A DNA stretch of 55,835 bases from Paracoccaceae bacterium (GTDB taxonomy: Bacteria > Pseudomonadota > Alphaproteobacteria > Rhodobacterales > Rhodobacteraceae), in the NCBI GenBank assembly GCA_019911965.1, contig JAIOJF010000057.1:1-55835 (forward strand), in the 5' to 3' direction. The notes below the pieces were generated by a model. It did not search any database, was not told where the DNA came from, and worked only from the letters and a program-made list of their open reading frames with translations. The position numbers and the translations under genes are program-made. This document shows positions 22,675 through 44,578 of this stretch, in pieces. Within the stretch, counting starts at the first letter, position 1; each line of letters opens with the position of its first letter.

Positions 22675-23376
22675 TCAGACCGTCAGGTAGGCATCGCGGA
22701 TTTCCGGTTTAGCATTCAGATCGTCAAACGAGCCGACATATTTGCCGGTGCCGCTTTCGATGATCACGGCCTTGACGGCGACGATCTGGGCGAAATGCAG
22801 GTTCTGCTCGGAAATCAGAACCGTAAGCCCCTCTTCCTTGAGTTGAAGGATCACATTGGCCATCTGCTCGACCAGCAGCGGCGCGATGCCTTCGGAAGGC
22901 TCGTCCAGCAGGATCAGGCGCGGATTTCCCATCAGGGTTCGTGCGATCGTCAGCATCTGCTGCTCGCCGCCCGACAATTCCTTGCCCCGGTTCTGGCGGC
23001 GTTCGGCAAGGTTCGGGAACATGTCGAACAGCATGTCCAGCGTCCAGGTCACGGCCCCTTCGCGGGACGGCTGGCGACCAACCTCAAGGTTTTCCAGGAC
23101 CGTCAGGTCGGTAAAAATCCGCCGGTCCTCCGGCACATATCCAAGCCCCATCTTGGCCACCCGATGCGACGGCATCCCGGTGATATCCTCACCCAGAAAC
23201 GTGACCTTGCCGGTCTTCGGCGTGACGATCTGCATGATGGATTTCATCGTGGTCGATTTACCGGCACCGTTGCGCCCCAGAAGCGACACGACCTCGGAGC
23301 GTTCAACGCTGAGACTGAGGTCATTCAGGACATGCGCCTTGCCGTAAAAGCTGTTGATTGCGGTCAGCTCAAGCAT
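22675..23376 (-). CDS. livF: Branched-chain-type ABC transporter ATPase (LivF)
   Basis: 233 aa. Walker A GRNGAGKST, signature LSGGEQQM, Walker B LILLDEPSEG and the LivF-like LVEQMANVILQL follow in order. The start at 23376 overlaps the livG stop by 8 bp, so the two are coupled. It is the last gene of the leftward operon. It should power uptake of the substrate bound by the protein at 26091. Confidence 0.9.
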   Translation of the reverse strand: MLELTAINSFYGKAHVLNDLSLSVERSEVVSLLGRNGAGKSTTMKSIMQIVTPKTGKVTFLGEDITGMPSHRVAKMGLGYVPEDRRIFTDLTVLENLEVGRQPSREGAVTWTLDMLFDMFPNLAERRQNRGKELSGGEQQMLTIARTLMGNPRLILLDEPSEGIAPLLVEQMANVILQLKEEGLTVLISEQNLHFAQIVAVKAVIIESGTGKYVGSFDDLNAKPEIRDAYLTV

Positions 23377-24151
23377 TGATACTGCCCTCCTCGGACTTCT
23401 TGTAGAGTTGGCCGCCGCCAAGATAGACTTCCTGCACATGGGTATTGTTGCGAATTTCCGCAGCGGTCCCCTCGGCGATCAGTCTGCCGCGGTTCAGCAC
23501 CATGATCCGGTGCGCATGGCCAAACACCACATCCATATCGTGTTCGGTGAACAGCACGCTGATACCGCGGTCGCGTACGATACTGGCGGTCAGTTGCATC
23601 AGTGCAAGACGTTCCTTGGGGGCCATGCCGGCGGTTGGTTCATCCATCAGCAGAAGATCCGGCTCATGGCAGAGCGCGATGGCCAGTTCCAGCCGCTTCA
23701 GATCGCCATAGGCCAGAACCGCCGCATGGCGGTCGGCCTGATCCTGCATCCCGACCGTTTCCAGAAAGCCTAGCGCCTGATCGCGGAACAGCTTGTGCGC
23801 ATAGGGTCTGAACGAGAAAATCCGGTGGTTGTGCGACATGAGCGCCACCTGCACGTTTTCCACCACCGTCATCGACTGATAGGTCGCGGTGATCTGGAAG
23901 GTACGGCCAACGCCCTTGCGCCAGATGACCCTGGGTGCCAGGCGGGTGATGTTTTCGCCCCGCAGGAAAACCGCGCCCGACGTCGGTTTCAATTGCCCCA
24001 TCATCATGTTGAAACAGGTGCTTTTACCGGCCCCGTTGGGACCGATCATCGCCAGCAATTCACCCTGTTTCAGGCTGAAGTTGACGTCATCCACCGCCTT
24101 GATCGCACCGAAATGCTTGCTGAGATGCTCAACCCGAAGAACCTCGGTCAT
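23369..24151 (-). CDS. livG: Branched-chain-type ABC transporter ATPase (LivG)
   Basis: 260 aa. Walker A GPNGAGKST, a LivG-type signature VLAYGDLKRLELAIAL in place of LSGGQ, and Walker B LLLMDEPTAGM. GGAGG precedes the ATG. It overlaps the permease gene by 4 bp and livF by 8 bp. It pairs with LivF on the inner face of the membrane. Confidence 0.9.
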   Translation of the reverse strand: MTEVLRVEHLSKHFGAIKAVDDVNFSLKQGELLAMIGPNGAGKSTCFNMMMGQLKPTSGAVFLRGENITRLAPRVIWRKGVGRTFQITATYQSMTVVENVQVALMSHNHRIFSFRPYAHKLFRDQALGFLETVGMQDQADRHAAVLAYGDLKRLELAIALCHEPDLLLMDEPTAGMAPKERLALMQLTASIVRDRGISVLFTEHDMDVVFGHAHRIMVLNRGRLIAEGTAAEIRNNTHVQEVYLGGGQLYKKSEEGSINA

Positions 24152-26010
24152 ACTTCACCCTCCGGTCTGTTGATTCTGCCAAAGCTCTCACGGGCCTTGC
24201 GCAGCGAGCCGACGATGCCTTCGGGTGCCAGAATGACCACACCGATGATCAAAAGGCCCAGCGCCATTCGCCAGTATTCAAAGCGGGTCAGGAAATCCTT
24301 CACGGTTTCAAGCGCCGCGCCGCCGACAACGCCGCCGGACAGGGTTTTGACGCCGCCGAGGAAGACCACGATCAACGCATCGAACGACCGTGCGATTTCA
24401 AGCTCCGACGGAAAGATCGAGCCCTTGGAGAACACGAACAATCCGCCCGCAACCCCGGCCATCGCACCGGCAAATGTGAAAGCGGCCCACTGAACGCGTT
24501 TGGTGTGGATACCCATTGCCTCGGCCTGGCGGGCGCTGTCACGCGCGGCGCGCAGACCGTAGCCAAAAGGCGAATGCGCGGCGTGGCGCAGCAACAGGAT
24601 ACCACCAACGCCGACGATCAGCGTCAGGTAATAATAGACGGTGGTATCATTCAGCCAGTCCGAGGGCCAGATATTGACCAGCCCGTCATCGCCGCCGGTA
24701 AATGCGCCCCACTGGTAGACCAGCGACCACAGCAATTGTGCGAAGGCCATCGTCAGCATGGCAAAGTAAACCCCGGTCAGCCGGATACACAGCCAGCCGA
24801 TGATCACCGCCGCCATCGCCGCCCCGACCGGCGCAAGCATCAGCGCGAATTCCATCGGGGTTTCGGAATACGTCACGATCAGCGCCGCAACATAGGCACC
24901 GCCGCCAAAAAACGCAGCATGGCCAAACGATACCAGGCCACCGACGCCCAGGATGAAATGCAGGCTGGCCGCGAACAGACAGAAGATCACGACATCGGTA
25001 ATCAGGACCATGCTGAAGGTGGAGCCGTAGAACGGCACCAGCGCCAGCACGAACAGGAAGGCGGCAACCATCAGCCGGGCGTTCAGGCCAGCCGGTTTGA
25101 AGGGCCTCTCGACCTCGCCGACCTGGCCGTGTTCACCGGCGACCTCTTCGCGCCCGAACAGCCCGTAGGGCCTGATCATCAGGACCACGGCCATCACCAC
25201 GAACATCAGCACCAGTGTCGATTGCGGAATATAGGTGACCCCGAACACGTTCAGCACCGAGATCAGCACCGCCGCCAGATAGGCACCCGGCAGAGACCCC
25301 ATGCCGCCAATGACGACCACCACGAAAATCGAGGCAAGAATGTTGAAATCCATCATCAGGTCGGCACCGCCCTTGGGCAGTTGAATGGCCCCGCCGAGGC
25401 CGGCCAGCGCCGCGCCAAGGAAGAACACGCCGGTAAACAGCCAGGTCTGGTTGACACCAAGCGCACTGACCATCTCGCGGTCCTGCGTGGCGGCACGTAC
25501 CAGAATGCCGACACGGGTCTTGGTGATCAGATACCACAGCGCCAGCGCGACAAACGGCGTGATGACGATCAGCGCGATATCATAGGTCGGAACCGGTTCG
25601 CCCATGATGCGGATCACACCCTTCAGGCCGGGCGCGCGCGGGCCGAGCATATCTTCAGCCCCCCAGATCATCAGCGCCAGGTCCTGAATGACAAGAATGA
25701 CGCCAAAGGTGGCCACCAGTTGGAAAAGCTCAGGCGCGCGATAGATCGGCCGCAGAACCAGCAATTCGACCACCACGCCGATCACGCCCACGACAATTGC
25801 GGCCAGCAGCATCGCCACCCAGAAGCCGACCATGCCGGGCAATATCTGCAACAGCGAATAGCCGACAAAGGCACCGAGCATGTAAAACGACCCGTGTGCA
25901 AAATTCACGATCCGCGTAACGCCAAAGATCAGCGACAAACCGGATGCCACCATGAACAGCGCGCCTGCATTCGCCAATCCGGTCAGCAGTTGTGCAATGA
26001 ACAGACCCAT
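24148..26010 (-). CDS. Fused LivH-LivM permease
   Basis: 620 aa carrying both permease halves in one chain. Residues 1-290 are LivH-like (ASGLSLIFGVTRIVNFAHG), then comes a hydrophilic linker (about 295-320), then a LivM-like half with GLVSFGHAAFFGGGAYVAAL near 370. Many membrane helices occur in each half. Most transporters of this family use two separate proteins. A GAGGCGG box precedes the start. It is preceded in the operon by the binding-protein gene and a GC-rich hairpin. Confidence 0.9.
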   Translation of the reverse strand: MGLFIAQLLTGLANAGALFMVASGLSLIFGVTRIVNFAHGSFYMLGAFVGYSLLQILPGMVGFWVAMLLAAIVVGVIGVVVELLVLRPIYRAPELFQLVATFGVILVIQDLALMIWGAEDMLGPRAPGLKGVIRIMGEPVPTYDIALIVITPFVALALWYLITKTRVGILVRAATQDREMVSALGVNQTWLFTGVFFLGAALAGLGGAIQLPKGGADLMMDFNILASIFVVVVIGGMGSLPGAYLAAVLISVLNVFGVTYIPQSTLVLMFVVMAVVLMIRPYGLFGREEVAGEHGQVGEVERPFKPAGLNARLMVAAFLFVLALVPFYGSTFSMVLITDVVIFCLFAASLHFILGVGGLVSFGHAAFFGGGAYVAALIVTYSETPMEFALMLAPVGAAMAAVIIGWLCIRLTGVYFAMLTMAFAQLLWSLVYQWGAFTGGDDGLVNIWPSDWLNDTTVYYYLTLIVGVGGILLLRHAAHSPFGYGLRAARDSARQAEAMGIHTKRVQWAAFTFAGAMAGVAGGLFVFSKGSIFPSELEIARSFDALIVVFLGGVKTLSGGVVGGAALETVKDFLTRFEYWRMALGLLIIGVVILAPEGIVGSLRKARESFGRINRPEGEV

Positions 26011-26082: not shown

Positions 26083-26090
26083 ACGTTTTC

Positions 26091-27370: not shown

Positions 27371-28165
27371 TTACCTGAATTGCGCGACACCGCCCTTGAG
27401 GACGGTTGCGTTTTCCGTGGCCGCGTTGAAAAACACCTGCTCGTTCTGGCGTGTCGCAGACATCACCACCACCTCTCCGGGCAGAACCGGTGCCGCCAGG
27501 CGCGCGCTCAGATTGATCAGGTCGCATGGATGAGCCCCTGCCGCCCCGGCAACCGCGCGGGCGGCAATGCCAAGCGTGCACAGGCCATGCAGGATGGGCC
27601 GCTCGAAGCCGTTGGCCCTGGCGACCTCCGGGTCGATATGGATCGGATGCATATCGCCGGTCAGACGATAGATCGCCGCCTGATTGGCCCAGGTGGCGTA
27701 GCTTTCGCTCCAGTCCGCCGCCTCGACCTCGGCGCTTGCCGAAGCAGGACCGCGCTCACCGCCCCAGCCGCCGCGACCGGGCAGGAAAATGCCGTAGCTG
27801 GCCGAGAAATATTCGCACTCGGCCACGATATCGACCATCGTCGCGCGGCCCTTGTCCCAGACCCCGGCAACACGGCCCGTCATCTCGAAATCGCCCTGTC
27901 TGGGCAGTGCTTTGTGAACCTGCAATTCCTGCGACGCATGCAGCGACATCTTGCGGTCATAGGCACCGAGATCACCGGCCTTTTCCACCGCCCAGAGGCC
28001 AAGCGCGGTGCCGAAACTCGGCAGCACGCGAAGGTCGCGCTCGTAGGTCAGATCAAGCGCATCAGGCTCCGCGCCGACGGACAGCGCATAAAGGATCGCG
28101 GTTTCGCTGGCATAGGTGACCCGGTGCTTGCCGAGGTCATGGCCGATCAGATCACTGAACTGCAT
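27371..28165 (-). CDS. MaoC-type enoyl-CoA hydratase
   Basis: 264 aa from ATG 28165 (GGAGA upstream). Two hot-dog halves are present. The C-terminal half has the hydratase-2 motif YRLTGDMHPIHIDPEVA followed by GFERPILHGLCTLG, with the catalytic Asp/His. The N-terminal half resembles FAS1-like dehydratase domains. It should hydrate a 2-enoyl-CoA, giving the (R)-3-hydroxyacyl-CoA. It overlaps the enoyl-CoA hydratase gene by 14 bp. Two hydratases of opposite fold in one operon suggest two successive hydration steps. Confidence 0.85.
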   Translation of the reverse strand: MQFSDLIGHDLGKHRVTYASETAILYALSVGAEPDALDLTYERDLRVLPSFGTALGLWAVEKAGDLGAYDRKMSLHASQELQVHKALPRQGDFEMTGRVAGVWDKGRATMVDIVAECEYFSASYGIFLPGRGGWGGERGPASASAEVEAADWSESYATWANQAAIYRLTGDMHPIHIDPEVARANGFERPILHGLCTLGIAARAVAGAAGAHPCDLINLSARLAAPVLPGEVVVMSATRQNEQVFFNAATENATVLKGGVAQFR

Positions 28166-28949
28166 CTGGGGTCTCCGGTTTCTTGAGTTCCTTGCCTTGG
28201 GCATCGGCCCCCAGTCGGGCCTTTATGGCAAGGACTGCTTCTTTTCGTGCATCCGTGGTCAGAAGTTGAATGTAGCGTTCACGCCAGGCCGCCATATCGG
28301 CGCGCCCGCCTTCAAGCTCGACCAGCAATCGCTTGGTTGCGGCAGCCGCCGCGGCATCGGTTTTCGCCGCCAGATCGCCAAGCTCCCGGGCACGGCGTTC
28401 GATATCGCCGGATTTGACAATTTCGCCAACAAGCCCGGCGCGGCGTGCGCCCTTGGCGGAAAACCTCTCGCCCAGCACCATCAGCCGCGTCAGGGTCTCG
28501 GCGCTGAAGCGTGCCCGCAGCAAGGCGATGGCGTCCGGTTTGTACAACAGGCCAAGGCGGGTAGCGGGCACCTGAAAACAGGCGTCACGCTCCGCAATGC
28601 GCAGATCCGCCGACAGGGCCAGTTCAACCGCGGCACCCATGCAGGGCCCCTCGATCAACGCTGCCACAGGCAAGGGGCAGGCGCGTAACAGATCACCGAT
28701 TTCCGCCGTCAGGCGATCATAGGCCACGTCCCTTTCGGTGCCGGTAATATCGGCCAGATCGGCCCCGGCACTGAAGGTGCCACCGGCGCCCCGCAGGAAC
28801 ACGATGCGGATGTCGGCTTGCATCGGTGCATTCAACGCTGCCTTCAGGTCGGTCAGCAACGCCACCGACAACGCGTTTCTGCGCCCCGGATTGTCCATCG
28901 TCAGCCAGAGGGCCGAACCGGTCTGCGCGCGATGAACCCGACCACCCAT
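28152..28949 (-). CDS. Enoyl-CoA hydratase/isomerase (crotonase family)
   Basis: 265 aa from ATG 28949, which overlaps the amidase stop (TGATG). Crotonase features: a GTFSAGADLADI oxyanion loop and EGPCMGAAVELALSADLRIA. The usual second catalytic Glu position is not obvious (VPATRLGLLYKPDA), so it may be an isomerase or another crotonase-type enzyme rather than a plain hydratase. It acts on a CoA ester, presumably from the ligase at 32929. Confidence 0.85.
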   Translation of the reverse strand: MGGRVHRAQTGSALWLTMDNPGRRNALSVALLTDLKAALNAPMQADIRIVFLRGAGGTFSAGADLADITGTERDVAYDRLTAEIGDLLRACPLPVAALIEGPCMGAAVELALSADLRIAERDACFQVPATRLGLLYKPDAIALLRARFSAETLTRLMVLGERFSAKGARRAGLVGEIVKSGDIERRARELGDLAAKTDAAAAAATKRLLVELEGGRADMAAWRERYIQLLTTDARKEAVLAIKARLGADAQGKELKKPETPDAVQ

Positions 28950-30361
28950 CAGGAACCTGCCATCGCTGCAGCTACCGGCAATTGCCAACGGGTTTTCAAC
29001 GGGGTGAGGTCAAACCCAAGGGCCTCCTCGAAATCCTCGCAAAGGTTCAGCAGGGCCTCATCCTGCCCTTGCCTCATCACCACCTGCAGGCCAACCGGCA
29101 TATCATCCACCAGCCCGCAGGGAAGCGATGCGGCAGGCGTGCCGGCCACGTTGAACGGAGCCGTGAACGGAAATGCGCCCCAAAGCTCGCTGACCTGCTG
29201 GCCTTCGATTTCAAGCGGGCGCTGGCCGATCGGAAAGGCCGGGACCGAATTGGTGGGCGTCACGATTGCGTCGAACTCGCTCAGATAGGCATCGAATCTG
29301 TCACGATAGGACACCAGCAGCTTTTTCGCCTGCTCGATCTCCTGATCGCTCAGCGATTTTGCCGCCTCCAGCGTGACCCGCTCGTAATCGGTCAACTCGT
29401 TCAGGTCCTGATCCAGATACTGGCCACGCTCGCGCAGCTCGTCAAAAAGAACCAACGGGCCGAACACGTCTTTCCAGCCGGCAACGGGGACATCCGCCTC
29501 GATCAACTCGTGGCCGCTCTGGCCAAGCCGCTGCACCGTGCGCGCGAACATCTCCTGAACCCCGGCACTGACGGGGCGGCCTTCGGGTGCGGCGCAGACG
29601 GCGATTTTCAGGCCGCGACCGCTGGTTTTGCGCGCAAACGACCGATCCGCCAGAACGTTCAGCAAACGCCTTGCATCATCCACCGACCGTGCCAGCGGGC
29701 CGGGGCAGACGAACGCATCCATCGCACCGCCGCCGCCTTCGTCCTTCACCAGCCCGAAGGACGGCTTGAAGCCGAAAACGCCGCTGAAACCGGCGGGAAT
29801 GCGGATCGAGCCACCGCCATCCGATCCCAGCCCGACCGAAACCAGCCCTGCCGCAACAGACGATGCCGCGCCGCCGCTGGAACCACCCGATGTGCGCGAG
29901 GTATCCCAGGCATTGGTGGTATCGGGGCCAAGCAGGTTGTCGGTAGTGGCGGATTGCCCGAATTCGGCGGTGTTGGTCTTGCCGGTCATCACCGCGCCCG
30001 ATGCCCGGATGCGTTTGGCGGTGCCGGTATCCTGCGTGCTGATGTGATCGCGGTATTTCAGCGACCCATAAGTGGTCAGGTAGCCCTTGACCTCGAACGC
30101 GTCCTTGATCGAAACCGGCACGCCGGCCAGGGGGCCGGCAGTATGGTTGCGATAGGCACGTTCAGCCGCCTCGGCCTGGGTTCTGGCAAGATCGCTCATG
30201 CGGGTGACATAGACGTTCATGTCGGAATTGAACGCATCCGCGCGGGCCTCGGCCTCGTTGAATACCTCAACCGGCGACAGGGACCTGTCGCGGTAGGCGG
30301 CAATCAGTTTGGCAATCGGCCAGTAAAGCGGGCTGTCATCTGCACGGGCGGTATCAGGCAT
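28949..30361 (-). CDS. Amidase signature family hydrolase
   Basis: 470 aa from ATG 30361, which overlaps the SDR stop by 8 bp. The Ser-cisSer-Lys triad is visible: K86 in VSIKDAF, S161 in TSGGSSGGAAS and S185 in SDGGGSIRIPA. Such enzymes cleave carboxamides to acids and ammonia. In this operon it could release the acid that the ligase then activates, or open a lactam. The substrate is unknown. Confidence 0.9.
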   Translation of the reverse strand: MPDTARADDSPLYWPIAKLIAAYRDRSLSPVEVFNEAEARADAFNSDMNVYVTRMSDLARTQAEAAERAYRNHTAGPLAGVPVSIKDAFEVKGYLTTYGSLKYRDHISTQDTGTAKRIRASGAVMTGKTNTAEFGQSATTDNLLGPDTTNAWDTSRTSGGSSGGAASSVAAGLVSVGLGSDGGGSIRIPAGFSGVFGFKPSFGLVKDEGGGGAMDAFVCPGPLARSVDDARRLLNVLADRSFARKTSGRGLKIAVCAAPEGRPVSAGVQEMFARTVQRLGQSGHELIEADVPVAGWKDVFGPLVLFDELRERGQYLDQDLNELTDYERVTLEAAKSLSDQEIEQAKKLLVSYRDRFDAYLSEFDAIVTPTNSVPAFPIGQRPLEIEGQQVSELWGAFPFTAPFNVAGTPAASLPCGLVDDMPVGLQVVMRQGQDEALLNLCEDFEEALGFDLTPLKTRWQLPVAAAMAGS

Positions 30362-31112
30362 GAGGGAACACCCCGCCGGAAATACCGTAGGTTTCGCCGG
30401 TGATGTAGCCGGCCTTGTCGCTGGCCAGGAACGACACGAGGTTCGCCACGTCCTGCGGTTCACCCACTCGTCCGACGAAGGAGCGGTTTTGCGCGTAACC
30501 GTCAAAGAATTCCTTGGGGTAAATCTTGCGCAGGAAGTCGTTGTAGATCAGGCCGGGGGCCACCGCGTTGACACGGATACCGTGCTTGCCGTTTTCCGCC
30601 GCCGCCACCCGTGTCAGCGCCATCACCGCCGCCTTGGCCGCCGCATAGGCCGAGCCATGCTCGACCGAACATTCCCAGGCACCAATGGACGAGATGTTGA
30701 TGATGTTGCCACCGCCCTGCCGGATCATGTACGGCAAGGCAAAGCGCATGGCGTAAAACGTGCCGTTCAGGTCGATATCCAGGCTTTTATGCCATGTTTC
30801 CAACGACATTTCCGACACCGGCTCGATCTTGTTGAACCCGGCATTGTTGACCAGAACATCGAGGCTGCCGAACCGTTCGGCAACCTCGTTCATCACGGTT
30901 TCAACCCGCTTGGCATCGGTCACGTCCAGATGCATGCCGATAACCTCGGCACCGGTCTCCCCGGCGATCCGCTCGGCATATTCCTGACAACGGCGTTCAT
31001 GCGCATCGGTGACCACCACGCGCATGCCGTCTGCGGCCAGTTGACTGGCGATGGCAGAGCCGATGCCGACGCCGGCTGCGGCGGTGACCAGGGCAGTTCT
31101 TGTTTTCGTCAT
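30354..31112 (-). CDS. Short-chain dehydrogenase/reductase
   Basis: 252 aa. The N-terminal dinucleotide site reads TAAAGVGIGSAIA, then NNAGFNK, the catalytic Ser in INISSIGAWE and YAAAK (YxxxK). The C-terminal end fits classical SDRs. It probably oxidises a hydroxyacyl-CoA or alcohol intermediate with NAD(P). It lies between the LLM oxidoreductase and the amidase in the leftward operon. Confidence 0.9.
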   Translation of the reverse strand: MTKTRTALVTAAAGVGIGSAIASQLAADGMRVVVTDAHERRCQEYAERIAGETGAEVIGMHLDVTDAKRVETVMNEVAERFGSLDVLVNNAGFNKIEPVSEMSLETWHKSLDIDLNGTFYAMRFALPYMIRQGGGNIINISSIGAWECSVEHGSAYAAAKAAVMALTRVAAAENGKHGIRVNAVAPGLIYNDFLRKIYPKEFFDGYAQNRSFVGRVGEPQDVANLVSFLASDKAGYITGETYGISGGVFPHA

Positions 31113-34608: not shown

Positions 34609-34641
34609 AGTACGGCATCTTTTGGCAAAAACAATACCTAC

Positions 34642-34659
34642 GTCACTTTTTAAAATGAC
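34642..34659. promoter_or_regulatory. Imperfect palindrome, likely TetR operator
   Basis: GTCACTTTTTAAAATGAC is an 18-bp palindrome with two mismatched pairs, centred in the divergent region. GACGTCGC and CGTCACTTTT follow further right (about 34660-34694), giving a second half-site-like copy. Its position would let the TetR protein repress both operons. Confidence 0.55.
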
Positions 34660-34748
34660 TGACGTCGCTTTTTTGTGAGGTTCGCGTCACTTTTATGTTG
34701 CCAATCGAAAAACCCGCACTAGAATTGGCCTATCAAAGGAGAACCGCC

Positions 34749-35806: not shown

Positions 35807-37122
35807 AAGACGAAGTTATCAAGAAGGCCGACCTGATTCAGGAACGGGTGACGCGGGTGTCCGAACGCTATCAGCATCTGCTGAGCGAGGCCGAAGATGC
35901 CCATGAATGGGCCTTTGCCTGGCGTACCGAGGTAAACCGTGGCGGTTTTCGTGCGGTTGATTTCCTGATGGATGCGATCGTCGATCCGGGGCGCTGCATC
36001 GGCTGCGCCTCCTGTGTCACTATCTGCCCGGTGGACGTGTTCGACTATGTCGATGAAAAGCCGGTGGATACCCGTGAATCCGCCTGCGTGCATTGCGTGC
36101 TTTGTGCCGAGGCCTGCCCGGTTCTGCGACCGGCGGACAATGATCTTGGCGATAGCCTCAGCATTCATCAGCCCTCGAAGGATGAGGGCTACGGGCCTTA
36201 TTCCTACGCCTGCTATTCGCGTACGACCGATGCGGAAATCCTGGAATACGCGCAGGATGGCGGCATGGTGTCCACGCTGTTGCTGCACGGGTTTGAAAAG
36301 GGAACGCTGAAAGGTGCCGTTCTTGGCGACGTGACCGAGGAAAACAGGCAGATCGGCCGCCCGAAACTGGCCCGGAACCGCGAAGAGGTGCTGGCCTGCG
36401 CCGGTTCGCGCTATACCTATTCGCCCAATACCCTGGCCCTGCAGGAGGCTCTGCGCGACAAGGTCGGCCCGCTGGCGGTGGTCGGGGTTCCCTGTCAGGT
36501 GGACGGCGTGCGGTTGCAGCAGAATTCCTCGGTCCGGCTGGGGCCGGTCACCTGGTACAAGCGCAACATCACGCTGGTGATCGGGCTGTTCTGCTCGGAA
36601 TCCTTCACCCATGAAAGCATCCAGAAACTGGGCGGGATTCTCGATGTCGCACCCGAGCGGATCAAGAACATCAACATCAAGGGCAAGGTGGTGGTGACGC
36701 TGGATGACGGTGAAATCCTGACAACCTCGCTGAAGAAATACCGCGAATGGGCGCGGCCTGCCTGCCTGTACTGCCTGGATTACGGCGCGGAAAATTCCGA
36801 CATCGCGGCGGGTGGTATCGGCCTTGACGGCTGGACCTATACACTGGTGCGCACCGAGGCCGGGCACCGCGCCTTTCAGGCGGCGATCAAGGATGGCTGG
36901 CTGGAAACCCGCCCGCTGGAAGATGAACCACGCGGCGAATTCCTGATGAAAAAGCTGTCAGCCGACAAGAAGCTGAACCGCCCGCTGCCGGCACAGATGC
37001 CCAGCCTGGCCGAGCGCAAGGCACTGAACTACCTCGACCCGAAGACGTTTTACACCAAAGGGCCAGGCGCGCCGGTAACCGATGACAACGCCACCCCGAA
37101 CAAGGATGGAGGCGACAAATGA
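35803..37122 (+). CDS. FrhB-like F420-reducing subunit with two [4Fe-4S] clusters
   Basis: 439 aa from a GTG start with CAGGAGG 7 nt upstream. An N-terminal ferredoxin part has C65, C68, C71, C75 and C95, C98, C101, C105 (CIGCASCVTICP, CVHCVLCAEACP). An FrhB-type domain follows: DGGMVSTLLLHGFEKGTLKG, VGVPCQVDGVRLQ, GLFCSESFTHESI and a further Cys pair in PACLYCLDYGAENSD. FrhB proteins exchange electrons between iron-sulfur clusters, flavin and F420. It overlaps the KorA-like gene by 4 bp. It should pass electrons from the KorAB enzyme to F420. Confidence 0.85.
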   Translation: MKDEVIKKADLIQERVTRVSERYQHLLSEAEDAHEWAFAWRTEVNRGGFRAVDFLMDAIVDPGRCIGCASCVTICPVDVFDYVDEKPVDTRESACVHCVLCAEACPVLRPADNDLGDSLSIHQPSKDEGYGPYSYACYSRTTDAEILEYAQDGGMVSTLLLHGFEKGTLKGAVLGDVTEENRQIGRPKLARNREEVLACAGSRYTYSPNTLALQEALRDKVGPLAVVGVPCQVDGVRLQQNSSVRLGPVTWYKRNITLVIGLFCSESFTHESIQKLGGILDVAPERIKNINIKGKVVVTLDDGEILTTSLKKYREWARPACLYCLDYGAENSDIAAGGIGLDGWTYTLVRTEAGHRAFQAAIKDGWLETRPLEDEPRGEFLMKKLSADKKLNRPLPAQMPSLAERKALNYLDPKTFYTKGPGAPVTDDNATPNKDGGDK

Positions 37123-38897
37123 CCATTTCCGCAAAGCTGGATGATCTGACCATCATGGTGGCCGGGCAGGGCGGCGACGGCTCGTTGACCGTGATGAACG
37201 TGCTGAGCGAGCTGTTCGGGCGTCGCGGCTATCACCTTTACAAGTCCCGCAACGTCGCGTCGCGGATCAAGGGTGGCATTGCCGCTGCACAGATGCGCGC
37301 CAGTGTCATTTCGCGCGGCTGCACCGGCGATCAGATTGATCTTGTGGTGGCCTTCGATCAGGAAGCCGTGACCAATGTCGGCGCGGATCTGTCGCCGGAC
37401 GCCGTGGTGGTGTTCGACAGTTCCGACAAACCGCTTGACCGGCGCAACCTGGCTGACAGCGTTCGTGTGATCGAAATTCCGTTCGGTCGCTACGCCGTGC
37501 GCGATCTGCGCCGCGACCTGTTCAAGAACTCGATGAGCTTCGGCGTGATCTCGCAACTGATGAACATAGATCAGGACGAGGCCGAGGATTGCTTGCGCCA
37601 CACCCTGCATCGCCTGCCGGAACGCGTCCTTCTGCCCAATATCGACAGCTTCGCCGATGGCCGCAAATTCGCCCTGGCGGACAAGATCGCCTCGGGCGGC
37701 TATCCCTGGCATCTGGAACGCGTGACCCGCGCGAAACACCTGATGATCAACGGCAATGATGCGATTGCCTTTGGCTTCATGGCCGCCGGTGGCCGGTTCT
37801 TCTGCGGCTATCCGATCACGCCGGCGACCGAAATCCTGGAATGGCTGCAAAAACACCTGCCCGCGATGGGCGGCGTGGCCATGCAGGCCGAGGATGAACT
37901 GGCCGCCATCAACATCGCCCTTGGTGCCGCGATGACCGGCGTGCGCACCATGACCGCAACCTCCAGCCCCGGCTTTTCGCTGATGGCCGAGGGTATCAGC
38001 CATTCCGGTTCGGCGGAAATCCCGCTGGTGATCACCAACAGCCAGCGCGCCGGGCCGTCCACCGGAATGCCGACCAAGCCCGAGCAAAGCGACATTGCCA
38101 TGATGATCCACTGTGGCAACGGCGAGTTTCCGCGTGTGGTTCTTGCACCGGGCGATCCGGGCGACTGCTTCAAGATCGGTGCCGCGGCAACCAATCTGGC
38201 ACAGCGCATTCAGGGCCCCGTTATCATCGCTGTCGATCAGGCGGTTGCGCAGGATGCACGCTCGGTAACGCCGTTTGATCTGGAAGCGGTGGAGCCGCAT
38301 GACGGTGCTCGGATGAGCGAGGACGCGCTGCAAGCGATGGCAACCTACCGGCGCTATGAACTGAACCCGAGCGGCGTTTCGCCCTGGGCGGTTCCGGGCA
38401 CCAAGGGCGGAATGAGCCTTGTTACCGGCAATGAACGCAACGAATGGGGCCTGGTAACCACGGTTCCGGCCAAGCGCCGCGAAATGATGGAAAAACGCGC
38501 CGCCAAGATCGACCATGTGCGTGCTGATCTGCCAAAGGGCATCAGGGGCGGCGATCGTGCGGCAAGGGTCGGCATCATTGGCTGCGGCATGCAATCGGGC
38601 GTCATCGCCGAGGCAAGCGAGCGGCTGAATGCTCGCGGAACACCCGTGCAATACCTGCAGGTGCGGACCCTGTGGCCGGTGCTGGACGAAACCGCCGAGT
38701 TCATCCGAAGCTGCGATCATGTCTATGTCGTGGAACATAACGGCGAGGGCCAGTTGGCGCATCTGCTGGACGGGCACGGCGCATTCGGCAACCTGCGTTC
38801 CCTGACGAAAAACGACGGTGTGCCGTTCCGCTGTGCCGATCTGGTTCGGCATATTGCCACCTTTGAAGCCAATACCATGCACGGAGATGCGGCATGA
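37119..38897 (+). CDS. 2-oxoacid oxidoreductase, fused gamma-alpha subunit (KorA-like)
   Basis: 592 aa, with GGAGG upstream. Residues 1-190 form the gamma domain (MVAGQGGDGSLTVMNVL). From about 205 the alpha domain begins, with GYPITPATEILEW, MQAEDELAAINIALGAAMTG, TATSSPGFSLMAEGI and AGPSTGMPTKPEQSDI, all typical of KorA-type enzymes. Such enzymes oxidatively decarboxylate 2-oxoacids to acyl-CoA and need an electron acceptor. The subunit has no ferredoxin domain, so the FrhB-like neighbour with two clusters is the likely partner. It overlaps both neighbours by 4 bp. Confidence 0.9.
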   Translation: MTISAKLDDLTIMVAGQGGDGSLTVMNVLSELFGRRGYHLYKSRNVASRIKGGIAAAQMRASVISRGCTGDQIDLVVAFDQEAVTNVGADLSPDAVVVFDSSDKPLDRRNLADSVRVIEIPFGRYAVRDLRRDLFKNSMSFGVISQLMNIDQDEAEDCLRHTLHRLPERVLLPNIDSFADGRKFALADKIASGGYPWHLERVTRAKHLMINGNDAIAFGFMAAGGRFFCGYPITPATEILEWLQKHLPAMGGVAMQAEDELAAINIALGAAMTGVRTMTATSSPGFSLMAEGISHSGSAEIPLVITNSQRAGPSTGMPTKPEQSDIAMMIHCGNGEFPRVVLAPGDPGDCFKIGAAATNLAQRIQGPVIIAVDQAVAQDARSVTPFDLEAVEPHDGARMSEDALQAMATYRRYELNPSGVSPWAVPGTKGGMSLVTGNERNEWGLVTTVPAKRREMMEKRAAKIDHVRADLPKGIRGGDRAARVGIIGCGMQSGVIAEASERLNARGTPVQYLQVRTLWPVLDETAEFIRSCDHVYVVEHNGEGQLAHLLDGHGAFGNLRSLTKNDGVPFRCADLVRHIATFEANTMHGDAA

Positions 38898-39754
38898 CCA
38901 TCACCTTCACCCCATCCCACCCGATCTGGTGCGCGGGATGCGGCCATTTCGGCGTCAAGAACGCGATCGTGAATGCGCTTGCCGCGATTGACCAGCCGGC
39001 GCATGACACAATGGTTCTGGCGGGGATCGGCTGCTCCGGCACGATCCAGAACAATATCGATTCTTACGGCTATCATGCCCTTCACGGGCGGGTTCTGCCG
39101 ACAGCCCTGGGCGTGAAACTGGCCAATCCCGACCTGATGGTGATCGCCGCCGGTGGCGATGGCGACGGCTATGCCATCGGTGCGGGGCATCTGGTGCATG
39201 CGTTCAAGCGCAACCCGAGCGTTGTCTATGTCCTGATGAACAACGGCATCTACGGGCTGACCAAGGGCCAGCGTTCCCCCACCGCCGAACAGATCGACCC
39301 GACCACCGAGCGCAGCATCGACGGTATCTCGCTTGGCCTGTCGATCCCCGGCTCCAGCTTTCTGGCGCGTGCCTATAGCGGTGCCGCCGATCAGTTGAAT
39401 GCGGTAATGGTTGCCGCGCTTCAACATGCCGCTGCCGGGCGCGGCTTTGCCTTTGTCGAGGTGATGTCGCCTTGCGTGACTTACAATGACACCTATGCCG
39501 ACTGGTCAGGCCGGGTCACGGATGTGACCGCAATGGAAGGCTATGATCCCACAAGCCGCATTGCTGCGTTTTCCACGGTTCACACGCTTGCCGAACAGGG
39601 CCGGATTCCGACCGGGCTGATCTATCAAAGCGATGCGCCGTCCTACGAATCCGCCTGGAAAAAGGAAGGCTTCAACGTGCCTGCGCGGATTGATGTGTCA
39701 CGCTCCATTCACCAGAACAGCTATTCCAGCATCATGGAAAAATATGCCTTCTGA
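38894..39754 (+). CDS. 2-oxoacid oxidoreductase beta subunit (KorB-like)
   Basis: 286 aa, with GGAG upstream. It starts with HPIWCAGCGHFGVKNAI (C13 and C16 as iron-sulfur ligands). The TPP site has GGDGDGYAIGAGHL (about 87-100) and MNNGIYGLTKGQ. It forms the catalytic core with the KorA-like protein. The 2-oxoacid is not known. Oxidative decarboxylation yields an acyl-CoA and two electrons at low potential, enough for F420. Confidence 0.9.
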   Translation: MTITFTPSHPIWCAGCGHFGVKNAIVNALAAIDQPAHDTMVLAGIGCSGTIQNNIDSYGYHALHGRVLPTALGVKLANPDLMVIAAGGDGDGYAIGAGHLVHAFKRNPSVVYVLMNNGIYGLTKGQRSPTAEQIDPTTERSIDGISLGLSIPGSSFLARAYSGAADQLNAVMVAALQHAAAGRGFAFVEVMSPCVTYNDTYADWSGRVTDVTAMEGYDPTSRIAAFSTVHTLAEQGRIPTGLIYQSDAPSYESAWKKEGFNVPARIDVSRSIHQNSYSSIMEKYAF

Positions 39755-39788
39755 GGCAGGGATGTTCACTGGATAAGGGTTGCCGGAC

Positions 39789-40763
39789 ATGACGCCTGCC
39801 GGAAGTGGGAAGACATCTTCACCAAAGGTTCTGGCGCTGAGCGGTGGCATCGGCGGGGCCAAGCTGGACCTTGGGCTGTATCATGTGCTGGACCCCTGGG
39901 ACCTGGCCATCGTGGCCAATACCGGCGATGATTTCGAGCATCTGGGCCTGACCATCTGCCCCGATCTGGACACCATCATGTACACCCTGTCGGCAACCTC
40001 GGACGAGGCAAAGGGCTGGGGCCGCAAGGACGAAACATGGGCCTGCCTTGAGCAACTGAAGGCGCTTGGCGGCAGTTCCTGGTTCGGATTGGGTGACAAG
40101 GATCTGGCAGTGCACCTGTACCGCAGCGCCTTGCTGCGCGAAGGCAAATCCCTGGGCGAGATCACCGCCAGCCTGTTTGCCCGCTTCGGCGTCAAGGCAC
40201 ATGTCCTGCCAATGGCGGATCAGGCAGTCGGCACCATCATCCACACGAGGGATGGCCGGGACCTGCCGTTTCAGCACTACTTCGTCAAGGAAAGATGCGC
40301 CCCCGAAATTACCGGGTTTACCTATCAGGGTGCACAAACCGCAAAGCCCCCGGCGGCATTGCTGGATATCATCCGGAGCGGCGATCTGCGTGCCGTGATC
40401 GTCGCCCCGTCAAACCCGTTTGTCAGCATCAACCCGATCCTGTCGGTGCCCGGCATCAGGGCCGCCCTTGCCGCCAGCAATATACCGGTTGTCGCCGTCA
40501 GCCCGCTGATCGGTGGCGCTGCCGTCAAAGGCCCTCTGGCCCGGATGCTGGTGGAAATGGGACTGCCTGCGACCAATCGTTCGATTGCGGATCAATACAA
40601 GGGGCTGTTGTCGGGCATGGTGATCGACACCACCGACAAGGGCGATGCCGATACCCTGCAAGATCTGCCGGTGCTGGCGGTCAACACCCTGATGAACAGC
40701 CTTGAAGACCGCATGCGTCTGGCACAGGATGTGCTGGAATTCGCTGATCGACTGAGGGAGTAA
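39789..40763 (+). CDS. cofD: CofD, phospholactate-type transferase of F420 synthesis
   Basis: 324 aa from ATG 39789; an in-frame TTG at 39780 is too close to the AAGGG box. Family motifs: LALSGGIGGAKLDLGL, NTGDDFEHLGLTICPDLDT, WFGLGDKDLAVHLYR and APSNPFVSINPIL. CofD joins the activated 2-phospholactate, phosphoenolpyruvate or 3-phosphoglycerate moiety made by CofC to the deazaflavin FO, giving F420-0 or a variant of it. It starts 34 bp after the KorB-like gene and leads a set of four cofactor genes. Confidence 0.95.
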   Translation: MTPAGSGKTSSPKVLALSGGIGGAKLDLGLYHVLDPWDLAIVANTGDDFEHLGLTICPDLDTIMYTLSATSDEAKGWGRKDETWACLEQLKALGGSSWFGLGDKDLAVHLYRSALLREGKSLGEITASLFARFGVKAHVLPMADQAVGTIIHTRDGRDLPFQHYFVKERCAPEITGFTYQGAQTAKPPAALLDIIRSGDLRAVIVAPSNPFVSINPILSVPGIRAALAASNIPVVAVSPLIGGAAVKGPLARMLVEMGLPATNRSIADQYKGLLSGMVIDTTDKGDADTLQDLPVLAVNTLMNSLEDRMRLAQDVLEFADRLRE

Positions 40764-40767
40764 TATC

Positions 40768-41511
40768 ATCTCTGCGTCTTCCGTCGAACTACTGGCCATA
40801 CCGGATTTTCCGCGCGTCACACCGGGCGATGATCTGGCCGCCCATATCGCGAATTTCCCGCTGCAGCAGCACGATATCGTTGTTCTGGCGCAAAAGATCG
40901 TATCGAAGGCCGAAGGCCGGATCGTCGATCTGGCTTCGGTAACGCCCGATGCCCGCGCCATCGAGGTTGCCGCCAAAACCGAAAAAGACCCGCGCCTTGT
41001 CCAACTGGTGCTGGAGGAATCGGCGGACATCATGCGCGCGAAACCCGGCCTTCTGATTACAAGGCACCGGCTGGGGTTCATCATGGCCAATGCCGGGATT
41101 GATGCCTCGAATGTCGGGCGGCCCGGCGCGGTGATATTGCTGCCGGTCGATCCCGATGCATCGGCCCGCCGGATCGCGGCGGACCTGAAACGCCTGACCG
41201 GGCATGATATCGGCGTGATCATCACCGATAGCTGGGGGCGGCCCTGGCGTCTGGGCACAACGGGTTTTGCCATCGGCCAAAGTGGCCCGCCCGCCGTCCG
41301 GGACATGCGCGGCGTCACCGATATGGATGGCAGGATTCTGGAAACCACCGTGATCGGCACCGGCGATGAACTTGCGGCGGCGGCCTCGCTTTTGATGGGA
41401 CAGGCGGCCGAGGCAAAACCCGCCATCGTCATTCGCGGGTTCGTATACGAGGACAGTACCGATACTGCCGCCGCCCTCATCCGCCCGGCTGAAGGAGACC
41501 TGTTTCAATGA
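40768..41511 (+). CDS. cofE: CofE, F420-0:gamma-glutamyl ligase, without a normal start codon
   Basis: 247 aa if read from ATC 40768. Conserved CofE residues are in frame from the first codons: VELLAIPDFPRVTPGDDL, VVLAQKIVSKAEGR, GFIMANAGIDASNV and ITDSWGRPWRLGTTG. Between an in-frame TGA at 40753 and GTG 41008 there is no ATG, GTG or TTG. Starting at 41008 would remove the conserved first third. GAGGGAG ends 7 nt before ATC 40768, so an ATC start coupled to the cofD stop is the best reading; a sequence error or mutation is the alternative. It lacks the FMN-reductase domain fused in mycobacterial FbiB. It adds glutamates to F420-0. Confidence 0.85.
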   Translation: MSASSVELLAIPDFPRVTPGDDLAAHIANFPLQQHDIVVLAQKIVSKAEGRIVDLASVTPDARAIEVAAKTEKDPRLVQLVLEESADIMRAKPGLLITRHRLGFIMANAGIDASNVGRPGAVILLPVDPDASARRIAADLKRLTGHDIGVIITDSWGRPWRLGTTGFAIGQSGPPAVRDMRGVTDMDGRILETTVIGTGDELAAAASLLMGQAAEAKPAIVIRGFVYEDSTDTAAALIRPAEGDLFQ

Positions 41512-42194
41512 AACCGAACCTCTGGGCCGTGGTGCCTGTCAAATCCTTTGGCAGCGCAAAATCGCGGTTATCCGCCCTGCTCACGGAAAAACAGCGCGAA
41601 GCCCTGTCGCTGGCGATGCTGTCCGACGTGCTGGTCGCCCTGTCCGGGGTCAGCCGGCTTGCGGGCGTCATGGTGGTAACGAATGAACCCGACGCTATCG
41701 GCCTGGCCCGGCAATTCGGCGCCTCGGTGATGGCGGACGAGAATACCAGCGGCCCGTCGGCGGCGATTCAGGCGGCGATCAGCGAACTGCGCCTCAAGGG
41801 ATGTACCGGAATACTGGCGCTGATGGGGGATTTGCCGCTGATTACCGGCACCGATATCGACCGCTTGCTGAGCGCGCATCAGGGCGATTGCGCGGTGACG
41901 CTTGCGCCATCCGGCAACCGGCTTGGCACCAATGCCGCGTTTTGCACGCCGCCGGGGATCATCCCGCTGACATTCAACGGCCGCGGGTTGGCCGACCATC
42001 TGTCGGCGGCACGGCAGGCGGGGGCCGAAACGCATGTGCTCGATATGCCGTCAGTGGCGCTCGATCTTGATCTGCCCGAGGATGTCGCCTCGCTGCTGGA
42101 CACCCGATCAGATTGCAGAACCCGCGCCTTCATCCTTGATCTTGTCGATAGCGGTCAGATTCCGCAGATCCCGCAACACCAGAAAACCGGATAG
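41508..42194 (+). CDS. cofC: CofC, guanylyltransferase of F420 synthesis
   Basis: 228 aa, with AGGAG upstream, overlapping cofE by 4 bp. Motifs: WAVVPVKSFGSAKSRL (nucleotide-binding start), NTSGPSAAIQAA, LALMGDLPLIT and NRLGTNAAF. It activates a three-carbon phospho-acid with GTP for CofD. Whether the acid is 2-phospholactate, phosphoenolpyruvate or 3-phosphoglycerate cannot be told here. The absence of an FbiB-type reductase domain makes a phosphoenolpyruvate route less simple. Confidence 0.9.
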   Translation: MKPNLWAVVPVKSFGSAKSRLSALLTEKQREALSLAMLSDVLVALSGVSRLAGVMVVTNEPDAIGLARQFGASVMADENTSGPSAAIQAAISELRLKGCTGILALMGDLPLITGTDIDRLLSAHQGDCAVTLAPSGNRLGTNAAFCTPPGIIPLTFNGRGLADHLSAARQAGAETHVLDMPSVALDLDLPEDVASLLDTRSDCRTRAFILDLVDSGQIPQIPQHQKTG

Positions 42195-42202
42195 GGCACC
42201 GC

Positions 42203-44578
42203 ATGAAAGACTTCAAACTGACCGCAGCCGGATCCACTGGTCGCCTGAGCGGCGCAGATGCGCTTGGCCTTGTCGCCGCGACGGGCACTGAACTGGAAGA
42301 CCTGATGCTGGTCGCCGCCAGCTTGCGGGATCAGGGCCACGGCGATTGCATCAGCTATTCGCGCAATGTGTTCGTGCCGTTAACCAAGCTTTGCCGCGAT
42401 GTCTGCCATTACTGCACGTTTTCGCGCGTGTCGCCAAATACCGGCGCCGCTTATCTCACACCCGACGAGGTGCTGGAGATCGCCCGTCAGGGGGCGCAGC
42501 AGGATTGCAAGGAATTGCTGTTCACCCTCGGCGACAAGCCGGAACTGCGCTATCAGGCGGCGCGTGACGAACTGGCCAGACTGGGCCATGCCACAACGAT
42601 ATCCTATCTGGTCGAGGTTGCCGGGCTGGTACAGCGCGAAACCGGATTGCTGGTGCATGTCAATCCCGGCGTCGCCACCGAGGCGGAAATGGCCGCGCTC
42701 CGGCAGGTCTCGGTATCGCAGGGCATGATGCTGGAAAGCCTGTCCGAGCGGCTATGCGCCAAGGGCGGGCCGCATTTCGGATCGCCCGACAAATACCCGG
42801 CGGCGCGGCTTGAGGTGCTGGAGGCCGCCGGGCGCTTGAAAATCCCGTTCACCAGCGGCCTTCTGATCGGCATCGGCGAGACCCGCGCCGAACGGATCGA
42901 GGCCCTGCTAGCCTTGCGCGATCTGAACGACCGCCACGGCCATATCCAGGAACTGATCATCCAGAATTTCAAGCCGAAGGCGAATACGCGGATGGCCAGC
43001 CATCCCGAGCCGGACGCGGATGAGCTGATCTGGACCATCGCCATCGCGCGGCTGATGTTCGGCGAGGCGATGAATATCCAGGCCCCGCCAAACCTGTTGC
43101 CCGGCAATCCCGGCCGCATTCTGGACGCCGGCATCAACGATTGGGGCGGTGTCTCGCCGGTGACGCCGGATTTCGTCAACCCCGAGGCACCCTGGCCGCA
43201 TCTGGACCAGCTTGCCCTTGATACCGCGAAGGCGGGCAAGGTGCTTGTCGAACGTCTGGCCGTCTATCCGCCTTATGTTCTGGATGCCGATACCTGGCAG
43301 GACAAGGCAAGCGCCGGGCTGGTCCGCGCCAACTCCGACGCCGAAGGCATGGCGCGCAGCGGTTCGTGGTATTCCGGCAAAACGCTGGACGGGAACCTGC
43401 CGCTTGCGGAATTCAAGGCTGGCCCCGGTGGCTGGCTGCACCGCCAACGCCCGCTGTCGCAAATCCTTGCCAGGGCCGAAAAAGGCGACTTGCTGAACAA
43501 TGAAGACGTGTCCGCCCTGCTGACCGCCCGCGGCGGCGACGTGAAAACCATCTGCAAGGCGGCGGATGATTTCCGCAAGACCATTGCAGGCGACGTCATC
43601 ACCTATGTCGTCAACCGCAACATCAACTACACCAATATCTGCAACTACCGCTGTACCTTCTGCGCGTTTTCCAAGGGCAAGACGCACGAGGACCTGCGCG
43701 GCAAGCCATATCTTCACGGGGCCAATGCCATTGTCGAAATGGCCTCAGAAGGCGTCAACAAGGGCGCGACCGAGGTTTGCCTGCAGGGCGGCATCCACCC
43801 CGATTACACCGGCGATACCTATCTGGGCCATTGCGGTGCCATCAAGCGGGCCTATCCCGATCTGCATATCCACGCCTTTTCACCACTGGAAATCTGGCAC
43901 GGGGCGCAATCGAACAAGGTTTCGGTGCGCGAATTTCTGGAACAGTTGAAGGCGCTGGGGCTGGGCTCGTTGCCGGGGACCGCCGCCGAGATACTGGATG
44001 ACGAGGTTCGCGCGGTGATCTGCCCGGACAAGCTTGATTCCGCGACATGGCTTCAGATCGTGAAAACCGCGCATGAGGTCGGCATTCCAACCACCGCGAC
44101 CATCATGTTCGGGCATGTGGAAAAACCCCACCACATCGCCCGGCATCTGCTGAAGCTGCGCGATCTGCAGATCGAGACTGGTGGGTTCACCGAACTGGTG
44201 CCGCTGCCCTTCGTGCATATGGAATCGCCGATGGCGCTGAAAGGCCAGTCACGGCGCGGCCCGACCTTTCGCGAGGCTTTGCTGGTCCATGCCGCCGCGC
44301 GTATCGCGCTCTTCCCGCATTTCCGGAATATCCAGACCTCATGGACGAAAATGGGGGTTGAAGGCGCGCGTGAATGCCTGAATGCCGGGGCCAACGATCT
44401 TGGCGGCACCTTGATGAGCGAAAGCATTTCGCGCGCTGCCGGGGCCGAACATGGCCAGGAATTCACGCCGGACAACATTGTCCGCTTCGTCGAAAGCATG
44501 GGCCGGATCGCACAACAGCGCAACACGCTGTACGGACGGGTTGATGGGCACATTCTGGCGGCAGCGGCAGCGGAATAG
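42203..44578 (+). CDS. fbiC: FbiC, FO synthase (fused CofG-CofH)
   Basis: 791 aa with two radical-SAM domains. The first has CxxxCxxC at C64, C68 and C71 (CRDVCHYCTFSR, CofG half). The second has C480, C484 and C487 (CNYRCTFCAFSKGK, CofH half). ELIIQNFKPKANTRM and GGIHPDYTGDTYLGH fit the two halves. The enzyme makes the deazaflavin FO from tyrosine and the flavin precursor 5-amino-6-ribitylamino-uracil. The fused form is best known from actinobacteria; archaea and cyanobacteria use separate genes. It starts 8 bp after cofC and ends the cofactor set. Confidence 0.95.
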   Translation: MKDFKLTAAGSTGRLSGADALGLVAATGTELEDLMLVAASLRDQGHGDCISYSRNVFVPLTKLCRDVCHYCTFSRVSPNTGAAYLTPDEVLEIARQGAQQDCKELLFTLGDKPELRYQAARDELARLGHATTISYLVEVAGLVQRETGLLVHVNPGVATEAEMAALRQVSVSQGMMLESLSERLCAKGGPHFGSPDKYPAARLEVLEAAGRLKIPFTSGLLIGIGETRAERIEALLALRDLNDRHGHIQELIIQNFKPKANTRMASHPEPDADELIWTIAIARLMFGEAMNIQAPPNLLPGNPGRILDAGINDWGGVSPVTPDFVNPEAPWPHLDQLALDTAKAGKVLVERLAVYPPYVLDADTWQDKASAGLVRANSDAEGMARSGSWYSGKTLDGNLPLAEFKAGPGGWLHRQRPLSQILARAEKGDLLNNEDVSALLTARGGDVKTICKAADDFRKTIAGDVITYVVNRNINYTNICNYRCTFCAFSKGKTHEDLRGKPYLHGANAIVEMASEGVNKGATEVCLQGGIHPDYTGDTYLGHCGAIKRAYPDLHIHAFSPLEIWHGAQSNKVSVREFLEQLKALGLGSLPGTAAEILDDEVRAVICPDKLDSATWLQIVKTAHEVGIPTTATIMFGHVEKPHHIARHLLKLRDLQIETGGFTELVPLPFVHMESPMALKGQSRRGPTFREALLVHAAARIALFPHFRNIQTSWTKMGVEGARECLNAGANDLGGTLMSESISRAAGAEHGQEFTPDNIVRFVESMGRIAQQRNTLYGRVDGHILAAAAAE

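Follow-up and report, generated by a model that had tools for sequence, protein, structure and literature searches.

A candidate transferable catabolic cassette carrying its own F420 cofactor genes in a Paracoccaceae bacterium

Organization of the F420 gene block

The window analyzed here is the entire 55,835-base contig JAIOJF010000057.1 from the 3.67-Mb genome of a Paracoccaceae bacterium (assembly GCA_019911965.1), and it contains a block of genes at positions 22675 to 44578 with predicted roles in the synthesis, reduction and use of the cofactor F420. The block consists of two divergent operons. On the plus strand the gene order is tetR-frhB-korA-korB-cofD-cofE-cofC-fbiC, with intergenic gaps of -4 to +25 nt; on the minus strand a series from an acyl-CoA ligase gene to a MaoC-like gene has gaps of -152 to +24 nt (longest open reading frames, ORFs, used), and is followed, across gaps of 74 and 80 nt, by the genes for a binding protein and a Liv-type transporter. 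Profile searches with Pfam and NCBIfam verified the gene families of the original prediction, both the cofD, cofE, cofC and fbiC genes behind a KorAB-FrhB set and the second operon with its LLM-family oxidoreductase, CoA-ester genes and its own ABC transporter. The divergence of the operons is also borne out, but the TetR gene does not occupy the separate position between them that had been proposed. Its start is most likely GTG 34749, judging from a related locus in a Rhodobacteraceae metagenome-assembled genome (MAG), designated L012, in which this codon is kept and ATG 34695 is not, and because of this placement tetR opens the cof operon. The features of the block are as follows, with other related loci also given L numbers.

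22675..23439, minus strand: Liv-type ABC transporter ATPase, LivF-like; 90% identical in L012; final gene of the conserved block
23369..24151, minus strand: Liv-type ABC transporter ATPase, LivG-like; family search and L012 counterpart
24148..26010, minus strand: fused permease, LivH+LivM-like; 61% relative by FrhB-KorAB and cof genes in L020
26091..27296, minus strand: periplasmic substrate-binding protein; 58% relative in L020
27371..28204, minus strand: MaoC-like hydratase; family search
28152..28988, minus strand: enoyl-CoA hydratase/isomerase family; family search; 5' end uncertain
28949..30505, minus strand: amidase-signature enzyme; 5' end uncertain; 30% relatives in L013 and L015
30354..31112, minus strand: short-chain dehydrogenase (SDR); family search
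31137..32150, minus strand: Mer-like LLM oxidoreductase, candidate F420H2-dependent enzyme; family and PDB matches
32147..32971, minus strand: alpha/beta hydrolase, PcaD-like; family search
32929..34608, minus strand: acyl-CoA ligase (AMP-binding); family search; leads the minus-strand operon
34640..34694, no strand: three direct repeats RCGTCRCTTTT, candidate TetR operator; at 34640, 34662 and 34684, with 22-bp spacing
34749..35399, plus strand: TetR regulator; GTG start; leads the cof operon
35396..35806, plus strand: relic ORF (cofD 3'-end and tetR 3'-end fragments); no Pfam or NCBIfam match
35803..37122, plus strand: FrhB-type F420 oxidoreductase subunit with N-terminal 2x[4Fe-4S] domain; family and PDB matches
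37119..38897, plus strand: KorA, 2-oxoacid:acceptor oxidoreductase alpha, gamma-alpha fusion; family and PDB matches
38894..39754, plus strand: KorB, 2-oxoacid:acceptor oxidoreductase beta; family and PDB matches
39780..40763, plus strand: CofD, 2-phospho-L-lactate transferase; NCBIfam
40768..41511, plus strand: CofE, F420-0:glutamate ligase; NCBIfam; non-standard start, ATC at 40765 or 40768
41508..42194, plus strand: CofC guanylyltransferase, unusual substrate-site residues; NCBIfam
42203..44578, plus strand: FbiC (CofG-CofH fusion); NCBIfam

The block recurs in a second genome

L012 has the entire gene set in identical order, with proteins that are 77-98% identical to those of the window, the relic ORF (62%) excepted, and it is the only other genome in which the whole block was found. 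Similarity at the DNA level starts at 22675, where the last ABC gene ends, and extends to 44577, one base short of the end of fbiC, with none outside 22675-44577 within the stretches fetched. The flanking genes are TPP-enzyme, primase, type IV secretion system (T4SS)-like, LysR and integrase genes in the window, and different transport, LysR and dehydrogenase genes in L012. The original prediction had called the system a self-contained F420 regulon, and gene-order comparison supports that description better than could be known at the time, because the whole block recurs in L012 and the similarity stops sharply at both ends. From these two genomes, this seems to be an accessory block that travels whole.

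For 15 genes, a set that leaves out the three ABC genes and tetR, dN/dS relative to L012 lies between 0.022 and 0.258. TetR has 87% amino acid identity to its L012 counterpart, and 56 of the 84 changed codons are synonymous. Comparison of the 400-nt stretches at either end of the block gives one inverted 10-nt match and no shared 10-nt direct repeat, and the contig ends do not overlap and so give no sign of circularity. A TPP enzyme gene at 20634-22277 was rejected as a member of the system; it is not within the conserved block, and the L012 genome matches it at 26-29%, on other contigs. We also rejected the ORF at 35396-35806 as an additional Kor or Frh subunit, on account of the cofD and tetR 3'-end fragments of which it is made; its sole PDB match has E=0.55. 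It is held at the same site in L012, as a recombination relic within the operon.

An FrhB gene linked to KorAB

The FrhB protein has both the N- and C-terminal FrhB domains (PF04422 and PF04432) above curated cut-offs and is below that of the frhB equivalog TIGR03289 (184.8 versus 331.5 bits). Its nine best PDB relatives all bear F420 enzyme names, with a subunit of the F420-reducing formylmethanofuran dehydrogenase of an ethane-oxidizing archaeon and Frh beta subunits at the top, and a subunit of F420-reducing carbon monoxide dehydrogenase (CODH) sixth. The eight ferredoxin-type cysteines and the four of the FrhB domain are invariant in all 20 sequences aligned (20 of 29 sequences); the latter four, C231, C264, C321 and C324, align with cysteines of 6qgr and are presumably cluster ligands. 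KorA exceeds the TIGR03710 cut-off (554.3 versus 482.75 bits), is closest to PDB entry 6n2n, and has the YPITP motif in 28 of 29 sequences, the exception being the truncated L024. KorB passes Pfam TPP_enzyme_C and PFO_beta_C, is below TIGR02177 (225.3 versus 261.9 bits), and has 5b48 and 6n2n as its best PDB matches. Past the FrhB domain there is a C-terminal tail, PKTFYTKGPGAP (window ~37040-37090), which most of the 20 aligned relatives retain with minor differences and which may be a docking segment for KorAB.

A scan of genome contigs with patterns derived from the query, and which thus finds close relatives, identified 28 FrhB loci in Alpha- and Gammaproteobacteria, Acidimicrobiia, other actinobacteria, Chloroflexi, Myxococcota, Dadabacteria and Armatimonadetes. 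KorA directly follows FrhB in every one, and KorB comes next in 27, L024 stopping at a contig edge. In a tree of FrhB-KorAB the window and L012 are grouped with L013-L015 (support 0.997). The cofD gene is present (E<=1e-20) in 27 of the 28 genomes, 22 of them above cut-off, and 14 of the 15 proteobacterial loci and one of the 13 others include at least one cof gene within the stretch fetched. This type of FrhB is present in just one of the 398 genomes of a phylum sample, namely the own genome.

There is no Fno/NpdG (TIGR01915) match at E<=0.01 in the genome of the window, and Fno is above cut-off in two of the 28 FrhB-KorAB genomes, with a third just below. In a 390-genome order sample, by comparison, each of the five other genomes with cofD has Fno above cut-off and no more than 3 kb from cofD. 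It is most likely, as read from the genes, that F420 reduction is carried out, in place of Fno, by a ferredoxin-FrhB subunit that receives electrons from KorAB, and the simplest reading of the module is that it would constitute a 2-oxoacid:F420 oxidoreductase.

Genes for F420 synthesis

All four biosynthetic proteins pass their NCBIfam cut-offs: CofD with 294.1 bits (cut-off 257.45), CofE with 193.1 (180.65; scored on a 167-aa ORF that excludes the N-terminus), CofC with 147 (105) and CofGH/FbiC with 1072 (1018). The genome has a single cofD. The gene occurs in six of the 390 genomes of the order sample, where the two further members of this genus are without it, and in five of the 398 genomes of the phylum sample. 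No ATG, GTG or TTG start is available to cofE before 41008, and the gene begins near ATC 40765/40768, where L012 has ATT/ATC; this suggests that a rare codon serves as the start or that translation is coupled. A GGGAG sequence precedes the ATC/ATT in both genomes (cofE, 40765-41511).

CofC is unusual at the site described in an excerpt of PMC8764529 as diagnostic for substrate choice. The site reads FNGRG in the window and L012, and G-x-x-S in 23 of the 26 other readable sequences (the 26 including L012); it also deviates in L032 and L070, and the replacement of G and S by N and G is confined to the window and L012. A modified F420 linker is a possible consequence of the altered site.

The LLM enzyme and its catabolic neighbors

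The LLM protein has a Bac_luciferase domain above the curated cut-off and scores under those of the Mer and TIGR03842 equivalogs (137-142 versus 276-349 bits). Among 15 PDB relatives the ten best are named F420-dependent, Mer first. It is 98% identical in L012, and its dN/dS of 0.022 is the minimum of the genes compared. In the order sample a match at E<=1e-45 is found in one of 390 genomes, the own genome, whose three other LLM proteins include two above FMN-type/MsnO8 cut-offs and one above none. Orthologues with 37-39% identity are present in five more of the 28 FrhB-KorAB genomes; three of their neighborhoods combine the LLM with hydrolase, hydratase, SDR and ligase genes, one is similar but without the ligase, and one has the LLM and hydratases only, while cofC and fbiC are within the same stretch in two of the five. 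No flavin reductase is found among the genes of the block by Pfam and NCBIfam annotation.

Other catabolic and transport genes recur near FrhB-KorAB. In L013 and L015 an amidase gene comes after FrhB-KorAB-cofDE, and four transport proteins (58-64%) adjoin the cof and FrhB-KorAB genes in L020. Molybdenum cofactor (Moco) hydroxylase genes accompany L013, L015, L020, L063, L065 and L066 within the stretches fetched, and more distant ones (27-35%) are present in L024, L026 and L028, with none among the annotated genes of the window block; those of the relatives hint at an N-heterocycle substrate. Glutamate-synthase-like and glutamine-synthetase-like genes, which we take to be linked to N-methylglutamate, adjoin the L012 block and hint weakly at an N-methyl substrate. 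Taken as families, the genes of the block suggest that a cyclic or N-heterocyclic acid is activated with CoA, reduced with F420H2, hydrated, oxidized and hydrolyzed.

TetR and the divergent region

The regulator has a TetR_N domain above its curated cut-off. Joint regulation of the operons had been proposed from their layout and from a palindrome at 34642. The layout fits, in that the operons share a divergent region with repeats, but the palindrome (34642-34659, with 7/8 arm matches) is at chance level, being equalled by 119 of 300 shuffles and not kept in L012, and we reject it as an operator. Three direct repeats of RCGTCRCTTTT form a better operator candidate. Their spacing is exactly 22 bp, no further copy is present on either strand of the window, and three copies are equalled by none of 300 shuffles at up to one mismatch and by four of 300 at up to two. 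L012 keeps the three positions and their spacing, with two repeats exact and the third departing once from the pattern; the repeat block is identical at 46 of 55 positions, and the remainder of the divergent region at 64 of 91. Joint control of both operons by TetR is plausible on this arrangement.

Other features of the contig

Elsewhere in the window, at 5705-17982, a gene for a Type IIG/DrmMI-like methylase adjoins a SIR2-HerA pair, with strong PADLOC model matches, and replication-relaxation and T4SS coupling-like genes are also present. GC content is 0.52 in this region and 0.61 in the F420 block.

A model for the cassette and its alternatives

From these genes we infer the following route. 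A Liv-type ABC transporter would import a carboxylic acid, which the ligase would activate to a CoA ester; the Mer-like LLM would reduce this ester or a later intermediate with F420H2, and the hydratases, SDR, amidase and alpha/beta hydrolase would then hydrate, oxidize and hydrolyze the product, most simply in a reductive ring-opening of a cyclic or N-heterocyclic acid. F420 would be made by FbiC, CofC, CofD and CofE. For its reduction, KorAB would oxidatively decarboxylate a 2-oxoacid, probably 2-oxoglutarate, and electrons would pass to the ferredoxin domain, on to the cluster and flavin of FrhB and finally to F420, substituting for Fno. TetR, bound to the direct repeats, would repress both operons until a pathway metabolite appears. 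On balance we favor this scheme as a whole, in which the 21.9-kb block would be a transferable catabolic cassette with a cofactor supply of its own. As to a broader version, our judgment is evenly divided: that FrhB-KorAB is an undescribed bacterial 2-oxoacid:F420 oxidoreductase spread across several phyla, that the cassette with its LLM and TetR switch could give an F420-less recipient a whole cofactor economy, and, more boldly, that a 2-oxoacid from the pathway itself may recharge F420 and CofC may make a modified F420.

Several observations weigh against this interpretation. KorB and the LLM score under equivalog or subfamily cut-offs, the KorB motif PCxTYN is present in 20 of 28 sequences, and the tenth PDB match of FrhB is the chlorophyll reductase 5dqr, so the family includes members not named for F420. 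All 28 FrhB-KorAB records are MAGs, and absences of Fno may be assembly gaps. One genome (G415) has Fno and no cofD match, for which an incomplete MAG is the sole explanation offered, and two others (G416 and G417) combine cofD with Fno or a near-Fno; because of these exceptions FrhB-KorAB and Fno are not strictly exclusive. No cof gene is nearby in 13 of the 28 FrhB-KorAB loci, 12 of these being among the 13 non-proteobacterial ones, and for this reason the reductase is probably older and more general than the cassette. The hydrolase, hydratase, SDR and ligase are only 24-37% alike across lineages, so that the same families recur but pathway identity and orthology are not proven. The repeats are known from two genomes, and the three-copy test applied to L012 alone yields only two. 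KOR enzymes are oxygen-labile, according to an excerpt of PMC12008989. Finally, because other proteobacterial plasmid cof clusters sit among LLM and catabolic genes, the pairing of F420 synthesis with its use is a recurring pattern.

Electrons might instead flow in reverse or by another path, with the LLM oxidizing its substrate with F420, FrhB re-oxidizing F420H2, and KorAB serving ferredoxin or general carbon metabolism. Reversibility is common among FrhB-type subunits, and the distance of most non-proteobacterial FrhB-KorAB loci from cof genes agrees with such a role. Some F420 enzymes are bidirectional and the LLHT enzymes include F420-reducing dehydrogenases, as stated in excerpts of PMC8498797. 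However, the own genome is without Fno, and a source of F420H2 is therefore needed if the LLM is a reductase; the FrhB-KorA-KorB order is fixed in 27 loci. The oxidation of 2-oxoacids is strongly reducing, and the direction of flow is argued from redox potentials of this kind. We regard the reverse route as unlikely. There is little probability, too, that the LLM is an FMN enzyme or otherwise makes no use of F420, which would leave F420 to another enzyme and the two operons with a common regulator but not a common pathway. Its scores under every F420-family cut-off would accord with this, but its closest PDB relatives are F420-dependent, it is the most constrained of the 15 genes compared, the block includes no flavin reductase gene, and its orthologue tracks the FrhB-KorAB lineage.

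We are more hesitant about regulation, since layout by itself cannot show induction and repeats between the operons could act on one side only. The cof operon may be constitutive, with TetR controlling itself or the catabolic operon only, and the two operons co-inherited but not co-regulated; we doubt this, although it deserves to be taken seriously. Against it, tetR is inside the cof operon with its short intergenic gaps, and therefore control of the tetR promoter amounts to control of cof. That the operons are neighbors merely by joint capture, as neutral hitch-hikers, would be in keeping with the finding of the entire block in one other genome, but in the distant loci L013, L015, L020, L063 and L066 genes for an LLM, an amidase, a transporter or Moco enzymes are again found next to those of cof or FrhB-KorAB, and we consider this explanation highly improbable.

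Comparison with known systems

Among the closest parallels to the cassette's putative reductase are the F420-reducing CODH (8RIU) and formylmethanofuran dehydrogenase (8RJA) of Ca. Ethanoperedens thermophilum, in which, as described in an excerpt of PMC11493965, an FrhB-like subunit that has a ferredoxin domain, FeS clusters and a flavin carries electrons from a CO2-forming oxidoreductase to F420. Those systems are archaeal and have CODH or Fwd as partner, whereas here the predicted partner is KorAB. FrhB of the F420-reducing NiFe hydrogenase and the FDRC family likewise share the FrhB N and C domains and four aligned conserved cysteines, but the family is given for Euryarchaeota, with hydrogenase, formate, quinone/methanophenazine or sulfite modules as partners (PMC8498797, Table 1). 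In excerpts of the same 2021 review, no F420-reducing dehydrogenase is said to have been investigated experimentally in bacteria outside the Actinobacteria, and the predicted alphaproteobacterial F420 producers are said to encode Fno and Fgd. In the literature searched, with subscription papers and preprints outside its scope, we recognized no description of FrhB combined with KorAB or of a bacterial 2-oxoacid:F420 enzyme. KorA and KorB are homologues, with YPITP and TPP motifs, of 2-oxoacid:ferredoxin oxidoreductases (6n2n; 5b46-5b48), for which the acceptor named is ferredoxin or flavodoxin and, to our knowledge, no FrhB subunit is reported in the entries. The LLM has its best matches in Mer and the TIGR03842 family, but it is under their equivalog cut-offs and sits among CoA-ester enzymes.

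If true, a 2-oxoacid:F420 oxidoreductase would be a new electron source for F420 and a link to central carbon metabolism. A cassette with synthesis, recharging and use of the cofactor would illustrate the spread of a rare cofactor by transfer and would provide a compact test system.

Other clusters of cof genes are found on plasmids of Sinorhizobium meliloti, Agrobacterium rubi, Leisingera, Croceicoccus, Aromatoleum and Paraburkholderia. That of Leisingera (L010, 8247-22119) has cof genes, npdG and a TIGR03842 LLM gene by dihydropyrimidinase, hydrolase, aminotransferase, nucleobase symporter and transhydrogenase genes, and looks like F420-dependent reductive pyrimidine breakdown, nothing of which type was recognized in the literature searched. 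In Agrobacterium rubi (L008, 12036-26274) the cof genes and npdG are tied to a different gene set, comprising LLM, 5-oxoprolinase, carboxyltransferase and aminotransferase genes. Five of the six stretches have an LLM gene, as the block does, and several have transport and catabolic genes. The original prediction that F420 synthesis is inducible and tied to one catabolic pathway is supported in part: synthesis genes, candidate reductase and Mer-like LLM share one conserved block, and inducible expression is a possibility, but a tie to catabolic genes is not unique to this locus. CofD is less than 60% identical in all 39 plasmid records. Where the plasmid clusters have an annotated npdG/Fno, in six cases out of six, the block has FrhB-KorAB instead, and it is this module, apparently replacing Fno, that is the most novel element of the system.

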